Positions 31,093-35,478 of a stretch of 35,478 nt of DNA are shown here, piece by piece. Position 1 is the first letter of the stretch; each line of letters opens with the position of its first letter. The stretch is from positions 1,296,112-1,331,589 of the forward strand of contig CP070783.1 in the NCBI GenBank assembly GCA_020346465.1, written 5' to 3'. Position numbers and translations under genes: made by a program. The DNA is from Deltaproteobacteria bacterium (GTDB lineage Bacteria; Desulfobacterota; Deferrimicrobia; Deferrimicrobiales; Deferrimicrobiaceae). Under the pieces are notes generated by a model. The model had not been told where the DNA came from and ran no database searches. It saw only the letters and a program-made list of their open reading frames with translations.

Positions 31093-32001
31093 TCACCGCC
31101 CGGAGGGCGGTCCGAGCAGGAGCCTTCCGGCCAGGTCGTCGATGAACTGGCGCGCGGCCCGGCCGCTGCGATGACCGCCCTCCATCGCCCAGCGGAGGGC
31201 CTCCCGGTGCAGCGCCGCCCGGTCCACGGGAAGTGCAAGACGCGCCGCGTAATGGTCGACGACGGCGAGGTACGTTTCCTGGTCGAAGCGGGGGAACCCC
31301 AGGCGCATTCCGAACCGGTCGGCCAGGCCGAGCTTCTCCGACACGGCTTCCTCGGGGTGGATCTCCCCGACGCCCGTGTTGTCGGACATCGTCTCCGGCA
31401 TGAGGTGCCGCCGGTTGGAGGTCGCGTAGATCAGGACGTTCCCCGGTCTCTCCTCGAGGCCCCCGTCGAGGAGCGTCTTCAGGATCCGGTAGTCGTCCTC
31501 CCTCTCCCCGAAGGAGAGGTCGTCGCAGAACACCACGAACCGGAACGGAACGCCGCGCAGCATCGCCGCAATCGCGGGAAGGGACGCCAGGTCCCATCGC
31601 CTCGCCTCCACGAGCCGCAGGCCCGCGGGAGCGAACCGCTTCAGGAGTCCCTTGATGCAGGACGATTTCCCGGTCCCCCGCTCCCCCCACAGGAGAAGAT
31701 TGTTCGCCGGATGGCCGGCCACGAACTGCGCCGTGTTCCGGACCAGGGTCTCCTTGGCATCGTCGACCCCCACGATATCGTCGAGATCCACGAGATGGGG
31801 GTGCTCGATCGGGGCGAGCCGCCCGGACGCGCCGTTCCTCTCCCACCGGTAAGCCCAGTACCTCTCGAAGTCCTCCCGGGCGGGCGGGGCGGCAACCCCC
31901 CGTCCGTCCAGCAGCCGCTCCGCGCGGTCCAGCATCCTCTCCAGCCTCGTCAGCAGGTGCCCCCATCGCCCGTCGTCCATTCCGTCCCCCATCTCCTTCA
32001 C
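31093..32001 (-). CDS. DUF815-family AAA+ ATPase
   Basis: A 302-residue predicted ATPase. The lead-in HPHLVDLDDIVGVDDAKETL is the DUF815 signature. Walker A is GERGTGKSS (106-114), Walker B is RFVVFCDDLSF (about 152-162), and sensor 1 is LIYATSNRRHLMPE. The family is widespread and its partner is unknown; it is an AAA ATPase distinct from MoxR and ChlI. The GTG start lies four bases after the thioesterase stop. ATGs at 31992 and 31980 are alternatives, and the choice does not touch the domain. It is the last gene of the chelatase cluster. Confidence 0.85.
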   Translation of the reverse strand: MKEMGDGMDDGRWGHLLTRLERMLDRAERLLDGRGVAAPPAREDFERYWAYRWERNGASGRLAPIEHPHLVDLDDIVGVDDAKETLVRNTAQFVAGHPANNLLLWGERGTGKSSCIKGLLKRFAPAGLRLVEARRWDLASLPAIAAMLRGVPFRFVVFCDDLSFGEREDDYRILKTLLDGGLEERPGNVLIYATSNRRHLMPETMSDNTGVGEIHPEEAVSEKLGLADRFGMRLGFPRFDQETYLAVVDHYAARLALPVDRAALHREALRWAMEGGHRSGRAARQFIDDLAGRLLLGPPSGR

Positions 32002-32450: not shown

Positions 32451-33485
32451 TCACCGCCCCTGGCGCTGCGCGCCGAATCGGGACAGCACGGCGTCGAGCC
32501 GCCGTCTGCCCGTCGCGGTCTCCTCGAACGGGTCCTCCTTGAGCCGGTGGGGAAGCGACATCCGGAAAGCGTCCGCCAGGCACTCCTCGTCGGGGATCTC
32601 GATCCCCTTGAACGCCGCGAGCGCCTTCGCGCTCTTCAGGATCGTGATGTCCCCCCGGTGGCCGGCCACGCCGAGCTCCGCGGCCACCTCCACCACCGCC
32701 TGCAGGACGTCGTCGGACACGCGCACGGAGGGAAGCTTCCGGCGGGCCGACATGAGCCGGTCCCGGAGGAGCGCGTCCCGTTCGTCCCACTCCGCAAGGA
32801 ACTCCGGCTCCTCCCGCTCGAACGAGAGCACCCGGTCCACGATCTGCTTCCGCAGCGCGATCTCCTTCTCCCCGCTCACCTCGACGCACAGACCGAAACG
32901 GTCCAGAAGCTGCGGACGAAGCTCCCCCTCCTCCGGGTTCATCGTGCCCACCAGAAGAAACCGCGACGGGTGCGAGTACGTCACGCCCTCCCGCATCACC
33001 ACGTTCCGGCCCGACACCGCAACGTCCAGCAGGACGTCCACCACGTGGTCGTCCAGAAGGTTCACCTCGTCGATGTACAGCAGGTTCCCGTTCGCCTTCC
33101 CCAGAACCCCCATCTCGAACTTCTTCGAGCCCTCCCGAAGGGCAGCCTCCAGGTCCAGGCTCCCCACCACACGGTCCTCCGAGGCGTTCAGCGGAAGGTC
33201 CACCACCTCCACCGGACGCTCCTCGTACGAAAGGCGCTCCCCGGACGCCTCCCGCGACCGGCACTCCAAGCACGGGGGAACGCCCCGCAGACACCCGAAC
33301 CGGCAGCCCGACACCGTCTCCTTCACGGGAAGAATCGACGCGAACGCGCGGACCGCCGTCGTCTTCCCCGTCCCCTTCTCCCCCCGGATCAGCACACCCC
33401 CGATCGTGGGGTCCACCGCGTTCACCAACAGACCCTTCTTCAGAAGATCCTGACCCACGATCGCGCTGAACGGAAATAGACGCAC
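32451..33485 (-). CDS. chlI: Magnesium/cobalt chelatase subunit I (ChlI/BchI-type AAA+)
   Basis: A 344-residue AAA+ motor subunit that, with ChlD and a large CobN or ChlH subunit, inserts a metal ion into a tetrapyrrole. FPFSAIVGQ opens the domain. Walker A is GEKGTGKTT (35-43), Walker B is LLYIDEVNLL (about 135-144), and VGTMNPEEGELRPQLLDRFGL is the sensor and arginine-finger region. A Cys4 set (61, 65, 72, 75) lies in the usual insertion. The GTG start follows GGGGGGA and lies one base after the stop of the unknown gene. In a non-photosynthetic anaerobe, cobalt insertion for cobalamin is the likelier role; that is inference. Residues 203-233 are coded by the 97-bp repeat. Confidence 0.92.
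   Translation of the reverse strand: MRLFPFSAIVGQDLLKKGLLVNAVDPTIGGVLIRGEKGTGKTTAVRAFASILPVKETVSGCRFGCLRGVPPCLECRSREASGERLSYEERPVEVVDLPLNASEDRVVGSLDLEAALREGSKKFEMGVLGKANGNLLYIDEVNLLDDHVVDVLLDVAVSGRNVVMREGVTYSHPSRFLLVGTMNPEEGELRPQLLDRFGLCVEVSGEKEIALRKQIVDRVLSFEREEPEFLAEWDERDALLRDRLMSARRKLPSVRVSDDVLQAVVEVAAELGVAGHRGDITILKSAKALAAFKGIEIPDEECLADAFRMSLPHRLKEDPFEETATGRRRLDAVLSRFGAQRQGR
32786..32882. repeat. 97-bp direct repeat, copy within chlI
   Basis: These 97 bases are identical to 35382-35478. They code for the GEKEIALRKQIVDRVLSFER segment and its flanks. The flanking base at the 5' end differs between copies; at the other end the second copy is cut by the window edge, so the repeat may be longer. 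Confidence 0.9.
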
Positions 33486-33486
33486 G

Positions 33487-33873
33487 TCATCCCCCCTTCG
33501 ATTTCGCCATGTCCCGCCCCAGCCACTCCTCCCCGCCTGCCGGGCAGAAGACCCGCCAATGGATCCGGAAATAGTCGTCCCCGAGCCAGTCCATGATGTC
33601 CGCCCCGTTCTCCCCCACGATGTCGAACTCCCCGGTGAACTCGATGGCGAGAACCTTGCGCTGCTCTCCCTCGTAGAACCGGATCCAGTGATGGCCCGCG
33701 GAAAGCGTGCCGGCGTCGATCGGGATCAGGTCCTCGTACTGCATCATGAGCTTTCGGGAGACCTTCGCAAGCGACATCGGGATCCCTTGGAGAAACAGGA
33801 CCTTGTTCCCCGTCCCGATCGGTCCGTACCGCTCCTCGATCGTCCTGCGGCCGATCGACATCCTCGGTTCCAT
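33487..33873 (-). CDS. Unknown 128-residue protein between the chelatase subunits
   Basis: A soluble 128-residue protein starting MEPRMSIGRRTIEERYGPIG. It appears mostly beta: TGNKVLFLQGIPMSLAKVSR, then AGHHWIRFYEGEQRKVLAIEFTGEFDIVG, then WLGDDYFRIHWRVFCPAGGEEW. A helix rich in acidic residues (GENGADIMDW) precedes the last strand. It has one Cys, three His, no signal peptide and no membrane helix. GGGGGGA precedes the ATG at five bases; the stop is one base before chlI. I do not recognise the family. Position suggests a function with the chelatase or its product. Confidence 0.75.
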   Translation of the reverse strand: MEPRMSIGRRTIEERYGPIGTGNKVLFLQGIPMSLAKVSRKLMMQYEDLIPIDAGTLSAGHHWIRFYEGEQRKVLAIEFTGEFDIVGENGADIMDWLGDDYFRIHWRVFCPAGGEEWLGRDMAKSKGG

Positions 33874-33927
33874 GCGATCCCCCCGTTCCGCCAGGCCGCA
33901 CGGGGCAGCCGGCAATCTGCGACCTCT

Positions 33928-35124
33928 TCAGATGATGGTGCGTGCGCGGATCGCCGCCAGGATGGCCGCCTGGCTCATCTCCGCAAGCGACAGGTACTTC
34001 GCTCCCATCGCATCGGCGACGGTCTTGGCCGGCCCCCCGGAGAAGATCCCCCGGGTCTTCTTCGACTTTTCGGTCGCCTCCATCGACGCCCGCAGCGCCG
34101 CCGGGCCCATCATCATCCTGTCGGTGTCGATGACAAGCGACGTCACGCCCATCCGGCGGAGGATCTTCGCGATCCGCACCGCCTCCTCGAGCGGCTCGCC
34201 CCCGACGTACGCCACGTTCGCCCTCCCGTCGGTGATGAGCACCAGGAGGGGCTTGCGCCCGGGGTCCCGGACCTGCTCGACCTCGAGCGTCTTGACCGCG
34301 GCGAACATCCCGATGGACAGCGGGGTCGTGCCGCCGGATGCGAGCCAGGTGAGCTGCATCGCCGCCATCGCGGCGCTGCCGGTCGGAGGAACCACAACCT
34401 CCGCCACCGTGTCGCGGAAGGCGATGAGCCCCACCCGGTCCCTCTTCACGTACGCGTCGCGCAGCAATGACAGCACCGCGCCCTTGGTGGCCACCATCCT
34501 CTTCTGCGTCTCCATCGACGCCGAGGCGTCGAGGAGGACGAGGATGAGATTCCCCACCTTGCGCTCCCGCCTTTTCCCCCGCAGATCGGCGATCTCGACG
34601 CGGACCCTCCCCGTTCCCCGATCCACGTGCCCGTTGGCGGCCGCGGTGAACAGGGTGGCGTCCATGGCGACGTCCCGCCCCTTTTTCCACGGCCCGCTCC
34701 GGACGTACCTCCCGCGGGTGCTCGCGGTTTTCGCCCGGCTCCTCTTCCCCGGGGCGTCGAGAAGCTTCCTCCCCTTCGGGACCACGATCTTCCGGACCTG
34801 GTACGGGGCGGAAGGGGGAATGACGCTCTCCTCGACGAACCCCTGGCAGATGTCGCAGTCGGGGTCGCCGCACGAGGGAGGGGAGGATGGGCGGGGCCCG
34901 GACCCCATCTCGCTTCGCCTTCTCGCCGCCATCGCCTGCTCGATCGCCTGCCGTTCCATCTCCTCGTCCGAGTGAGTAGGAGCCCGGAAGACGAACCCGC
35001 CCCGCTTCATCCCGTGGGTCGTGTCCGGAAGGGGAACGACCGGCTCGCCGTCCGCCTCCTGCATCTCCCCCGGGAACGCCCAGGAGAGAAGGCGCTCCAC
35101 GTGGCGCGCGACGCGGTCGCTCAC
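33928..35124 (-). CDS. chlD: ChlD-type chelatase subunit, C-terminal VWA part after an in-frame TAG
   Basis: A 398-residue reading frame. Its first 20 residues finish an AAA lid helix (RVARHVERLLSWAFPGE). Then come a Pro/acidic/basic linker with a CGDPDCDIC cluster (Cys85, 90, 93), the DVAMDATLFTAAANG lead and a VWA domain with a complete metal-dependent adhesion site: DASAS (199-203), a Thr in GGTTPLS and an Asp in LITDGRANV. This order is that of ChlD/BchD. Directly upstream, in the same frame and separated only by a TAG at 35206-35208, is the AAA part. The GTG at 35124 has AGGAG four bases before it, so independent translation is possible. If the TAG is not suppressed, this is a truncated or split gene. 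Confidence 0.8.
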   Translation of the reverse strand: MSDRVARHVERLLSWAFPGEMQEADGEPVVPLPDTTHGMKRGGFVFRAPTHSDEEMERQAIEQAMAARRRSEMGSGPRPSSPPSCGDPDCDICQGFVEESVIPPSAPYQVRKIVVPKGRKLLDAPGKRSRAKTASTRGRYVRSGPWKKGRDVAMDATLFTAAANGHVDRGTGRVRVEIADLRGKRRERKVGNLILVLLDASASMETQKRMVATKGAVLSLLRDAYVKRDRVGLIAFRDTVAEVVVPPTGSAAMAAMQLTWLASGGTTPLSIGMFAAVKTLEVEQVRDPGRKPLLVLITDGRANVAYVGGEPLEEAVRIAKILRRMGVTSLVIDTDRMMMGPAALRASMEATEKSKKTRGIFSGGPAKTVADAMGAKYLSLAEMSQAAILAAIRARTII

Positions 35125-35205
35125 CCCGCTCCTGGGGATGCGGTGCGGGAGGGCAAGCCGGATGGCGTCCTTGAGATCACCCGCCGAGAGGTCGCTTCCC
35201 CGGCG

Positions 35206-35208
35206 CTA
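35206..35208 (-). other. In-frame TAG codon joining the two halves of a chlD-like frame
   Basis: The frame reads ARALSA-TAG-RRGSDLSAGDLKDAI and goes on unbroken into the VWA half. In ChlI the matching stretch is AKALAA-F-KGIEIPDEECLADAF. From this point to the shared LPHR motif the two proteins align without a gap, so the change is a substitution, not a frameshift. Confidence 0.85.
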
Positions 35209-35381
35209 GGCGGAGAGCGCCCGGGCGGTCTTGAGGATCGCGATATCCCCGCGGTGGCCGGCCACGCCGAGAGCGGAGACCACCTCCGTCACCGTCTTCA
35301 GGATCCGGTCGGAAACCGGGATCCCGAGGAGCCTGGCGCGTCCCTCCTCCACCCGACCCAGGATGCGCCGGTCATCCCTTC

Positions 35382-35478
35382 CCCACTCCGCAAGGAACTC
35401 CGGCTCCTCCCGCTCGAACGAGAGCACCCGGTCCACGATCTGCTTCCGCAGCGCGATCTCCTTCTCCCCGCTCACCTC
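35382..35478. repeat. 97-bp direct repeat, copy at the right window edge
   Basis: Identical to 32786-32882 in the same orientation. It reaches the last base of the window, so its true length is unknown. Confidence 0.9.

Follow-up and report, generated by a model that had tools for sequence, protein, structure and literature searches.

A chlD-like gene of a Deltaproteobacteria bacterium from the family Deferrimicrobiaceae carries an in-frame TAG, which raises the question of whether this codon marks a broken gene, is read through, separates two polypeptides, or is an error of the assembly. The window analysed here is the whole stretch of 35,478 nucleotides in which the gene was noticed (assembly GCA_020346465.1, CP070783.1, positions 1,296,112 to 1,331,589). 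The 2.32 Mb source "contig" is in fact a scaffold containing 100-N gaps. The window corresponds to exactly one contig, flanked immediately on either side by a 100-N gap (the one that follows it at 1331590-1331689). Because it stops at a scaffold gap, the first ~600 nt of chlD are missing for reasons of assembly. The remaining 3' part (33928-35478, minus strand, truncated at 35478) encodes the end of the AAA core, the AAA lid, the linker and the VWA domain.

The chlD-like frame runs from 35478 to 33928 on the minus strand and spans 516 codons with exactly one internal stop, the TAG at 35206-35208 (codon 91). A base-shuffled frame of the same composition is expected to contain ~11 stops, and one stop or fewer was obtained in 1 of 2000 shuffles. 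As the earlier note had described, the TAG is present in the assembled sequence, splits an AAA-VWA gene without a change of frame on either side, and aligns gap-free with a Phe codon (TTC) of the neighbouring chlI. Specifically, it lies in the middle of the Pfam match to AAA_lid_2 (PF17863; frame residues 62-115, 35134-35295, minus strand), and the lid sequence LPHR follows it at 35140-35151. The VWA_2 domain (PF13519) occupies residues 312-418 (34225-34545, minus strand). The linker contains a Cys motif, CGDPDCDICQ (window ~34845-34880), that is conserved in ChlD of Deferrimicrobiaceae and might bind a metal.

The same-genus relative G003, whose contig is publicly listed as Deltaproteobacteria bacterium CSP1-8 (LDXO01000005.1), contains an uninterrupted chlD orthologue, 87% identical across both flanks of the TAG, indicating that the frame is real. 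The AAA, lid and VWA parts are all present in this intact orthologue. The codon at the TAG site encodes Leu in G003, G006 and G008, all members of the same family, and either Tyr (G024) or Phe (G061 and G055) in three more distant genomes. Neither TAG nor any other stop occurs at the site in the six orthologues examined, so the comparison with relatives proposed in the earlier note returned a sense codon in every case, and the TAG is unique to the source genome.

Relative to G003, dN/dS is 0.075 in the 27 codons after the TAG and 0.067 in the VWA domain, with a value of 0.27 in the linker between them. Nonsynonymous and synonymous changes after the TAG number 11 and 30 on the branch of the source genome and 12 and 23 on that of G003, and thus no relaxation has accumulated. 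Purifying selection is evident before as well as after the TAG, the 27 codons included, which argues that the lesion is either recent or spurious. When 39 conserved frames (14,423 codons) were compared with G003, chlD alone among the real genes was interrupted by a stop, and ~36 other genes common to the two genomes have none. The remaining flagged stops were dismissed, since they lie upstream of true starts or in spurious frames; the genes with stops upstream of real starts are presumably atpA and dnaN, which they resemble.

The constraint that persists beyond the TAG is also what would be expected if a suppressor tRNA, pyrrolysine or a leaky stop allowed a minority of full-length ChlD to be made, and the TAG is followed by C, which makes for leaky termination in E. 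coli. Nevertheless, amber readthrough, as the earlier note had suggested, has only a very slight chance of being correct. The search for pylS that the earlier note had called for gave no score above the cut-off (TIGR02367, best 24 bits against 178 in the source genome), RF1 is present, and gatA and gatB terminate in TAG, indicating that TAG is an ordinary stop in this organism. The absence of TAG from the relatives points the same way, and the 80 nt downstream of the TAG fold no better than shuffled sequences (z = +0.6), giving no sign of a stable structure. Recoding of TAG throughout the genome was rejected because a true internal stop occurs in chlD alone of the 39 frames.

No tRNA with a CUA anticodon was found among those recovered by Rfam search, ARAGORN and pattern search, a test that is weak by itself since the scaffold is gapped and the recovered set is incomplete, without, for example, a Tyr, His or Asn tRNA. 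The pattern search, which looked for a T-arm after a CUA anticodon, returned known tRNAs, pieces of tRNA-Leu and non-tRNA matches only. The TAG-flanked candidates at 2057769 and at 1776140/1778376 proved, on inspection by eye, to be tRNA-Leu pieces with anticodons ending in AG and CAA, not CUA. The 3' half of tRNA-Leu (CAA) is present in two copies (G000:C1:1776092-1776140 and 1778328-1778376), which look like duplicated attachment sites. A tRNA-SeC (TCA) gene is located at L040:1912-2007, and the source genome thus probably uses selenocysteine at TGA.

A second way to preserve the downstream sequence is to make two polypeptides, with the TAG closing a short AAA protein and a GTG restarting a free linker-VWA protein. 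As noted previously, the GTG (35124-35122) comes exactly 27 codons after the TAG and has an AGGAG upstream; the latter (35129-35133, minus strand) precedes it by 4 nt. Precedent exists in fs-chlD genes, in which programmed frameshifting makes two subunits, small and medium (PMC9227772). This reading is nonetheless highly unlikely, although we rank it above readthrough. The restart codon is not conserved, being GTC in G003, GTG in G006 and GTA in G008, and the AGGAG encodes Arg-Ser, is kept only in the same-genus relative and is accounted for by conserved coding. Had translation long been restarting at the GTG, the 27 codons would be free of constraint at the protein level, whereas the constraint on them is strong. 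Moreover, the TAG halves AAA_lid_2, which leaves the short product incomplete as a small subunit, and an intact chlI exists as a gene of its own. With neither readthrough nor a two-polypeptide ChlD supported, the suggestion that readthrough sets the ratio of full-length ChlD to free VWA domain loses its basis.

The comparison with fs-chlD (PMC9227772) leads to the same end. In both cases the reading of chlD is interrupted between the AAA part and the VWA part. However, the interruption of fs-chlD comes after a complete small subunit, while the stop here is inside the lid; here, the frame is the same on both sides, there is no stimulatory structure, the stop is not conserved, and chlI is a separate gene. 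The chlD gene in the window shows none of the fs-chlD features tested.

A contig end lies only 271 nt from the TAG, which bears on whether the TAG is a property of the organism or of its assembly. The break falls inside chlD because this gene and chlI have in common an ATPase core of ~690-700 nt, almost certainly identical in the two. The last 97 nt of the contig (35382-35478, minus strand), at the edge of the core, are identical to 32786-32882 in chlI (chlI nt 604-700). This chlI-like AAA+ gene (32451-33485, minus strand) is intact, and its first ~700 nt are common to chlD. The 5' half of chlD is located at G000:99153-100810, ~1.2 Mb from the 3' part in the scaffold, where it follows a sigma factor gene and another short gene whose product resembles an anti-sigma factor. 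Its contig also ends at a 100-N gap, where 99 nt are identical to chlI nt 2-100. The ~700 nt core was thus assembled once, in chlI, and the halves of chlD were placed 1.2 Mb apart, making gene order across the gaps unreliable. In the source genome, chlI and chlD almost certainly have cores of the same DNA sequence, forming a collapsed repeat of ~700 nt with its chlI side at 32786-33484.

The closeness of the TAG to a repeat-made contig end gives serious weight to the possibility, which we judge less probable than a real mutation, that the TAG is a base error or strain-mixing artefact and that chlD is intact in the organism. The assembly is of the metagenome type and is scaffolded with 100-N gaps, and a frame without decay is expected under this reading. 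Against it, the TAG is 174 nt past the repeat, where the chlI and chlD copies differ strongly; mixing in of chlI reads was therefore rejected as its source. In addition, the other shared genes compared contain no internal stop, indicating that the assembly is not rich in errors, and the differences surrounding the TAG are mostly synonymous, like true divergence rather than noise.

We consider it probable, with substantial doubt, that the TAG is a recent nonsense mutation of the chlD-like gene in this population or strain. Besides the metagenome assembly and the position near the contig end, what counts against a mutation is that TAG is two base changes from the codon commonest at the site in the family, and that the Leu codon one step away, TTG, is rare in the source genome (5 of 205 Leu codons). 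Young nonsense-interrupted pseudogenes of bacteria likewise have one premature stop, intact orthologues and an otherwise undecayed frame; in this case, by comparison, the stop is read from the assembled sequence alone. Of the four explanations offered in the earlier note, nonsense mutation and sequencing error thus survive, while amber readthrough and a two-polypeptide ChlD are unsupported. The TAG is isolated and shows no sign of readthrough, and most likely marks a gene copy broken recently in the ordinary way, or else an error in base calling.

If the gene is broken by a nonsense mutation, as we favour, the TAG base would be true in the DNA of the organism and would act as an ordinary stop with no recoding. 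Translation would then terminate within the AAA lid, and no full-length ChlD would be made. The product would be a fragment lacking the final helices of the lid as well as the linker and VWA domain, and is probably inactive. Some relatives, including G005 (listed as 100% complete), have neither chlI nor chlD, indicating that loss is tolerated.

The shared core extends to other members of the family. The chlI and chlD cores are 100% identical over 685 nt in G003 and 690 nt in G008, values to be read with caution since assemblers may copy a collapsed repeat into both places and so mimic identical cores. The same core differs by ~18% between the genera of G003 and G008. The copies of G006 match each other at 83% (over 868 nt) to 88% (core). 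Identity within a genome combined with ~18% divergence between genera is the pattern of gene conversion, implying, from sequence comparison, that conversion may keep the chlI and chlD ATPase cores alike. In ~10 other family genomes, contigs break in or near the core, which accounts for some of the cases in which chlD appears to be absent. A true absence of chlD from most family genomes was not concluded, since in many of them the contig carrying chlI stops at the boundary of the core.

By architecture, the chlI/chlD pair should form an AAA+ ring with a VWA-bearing partner. The ChlD orthologue of G003 scores below the curated cut-offs of two models for the D subunit of Mg/Co-chelatase, TIGR02442 (645.5 against 779.45) and TIGR02031 (360.6 against 499.55). 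The large subunit ChlH/CobN (PF02514) was found in 0 of 24 family genomes by a search that was positive in control genomes. Genotypes with chlI and chlD but no large subunit have been described, and their function was called unknown (Kuznetsov et al. 2022, PMC9227772). Like the stage-2 pairs of that study, the genes analysed here are a tandem chlI-like/chlD-like pair in a genome without ChlH/CobN; they differ in that the cores are almost certainly identical in DNA, the two genes are separated by a small conserved ORF, and chlD carries the TAG. This ORF (33487-33915, minus strand; 128 aa from Met at 33873) has the same position in four relatives, is 45-75% identical when aligned from Met 33873, and has no match in Pfam or NCBIfam. 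A lineage-specific leaky amber could in principle tune how much AAA-only product is made relative to full-length ChlD, in the manner of fs-chlD, with cores kept identical by conversion making the I and D subunits interchangeable in one ring; this is the least probable of the readings considered here.

Two further features of the surroundings were observed. A gene for a DUF815 (PF05673) AAA ATPase (window 31093-32001) adjoins the 4HBT thioesterase and chlI genes. A dispersed repeat of ~110-120 bp is present in ~15 copies, 78-89% alike, in G000:C1 (e.g. 1342333-1342452, 1507979-1508111, 1409155-1409266 and 664134-664244).

A lone in-frame TAG in a genome assembled from a metagenome does not amount to evidence of recoding. 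The stop is of an ordinary kind; of more interest is how the cores of chlI and chlD relate to each other. Identical I-like and D-like cores interrupt short-read assemblies at one recurrent point across many genomes of the family, so that chlD can look absent. For the biology of the family, the identity of the cores suggests strong pressure, or frequent conversion, that keeps the motors of both subunits alike.
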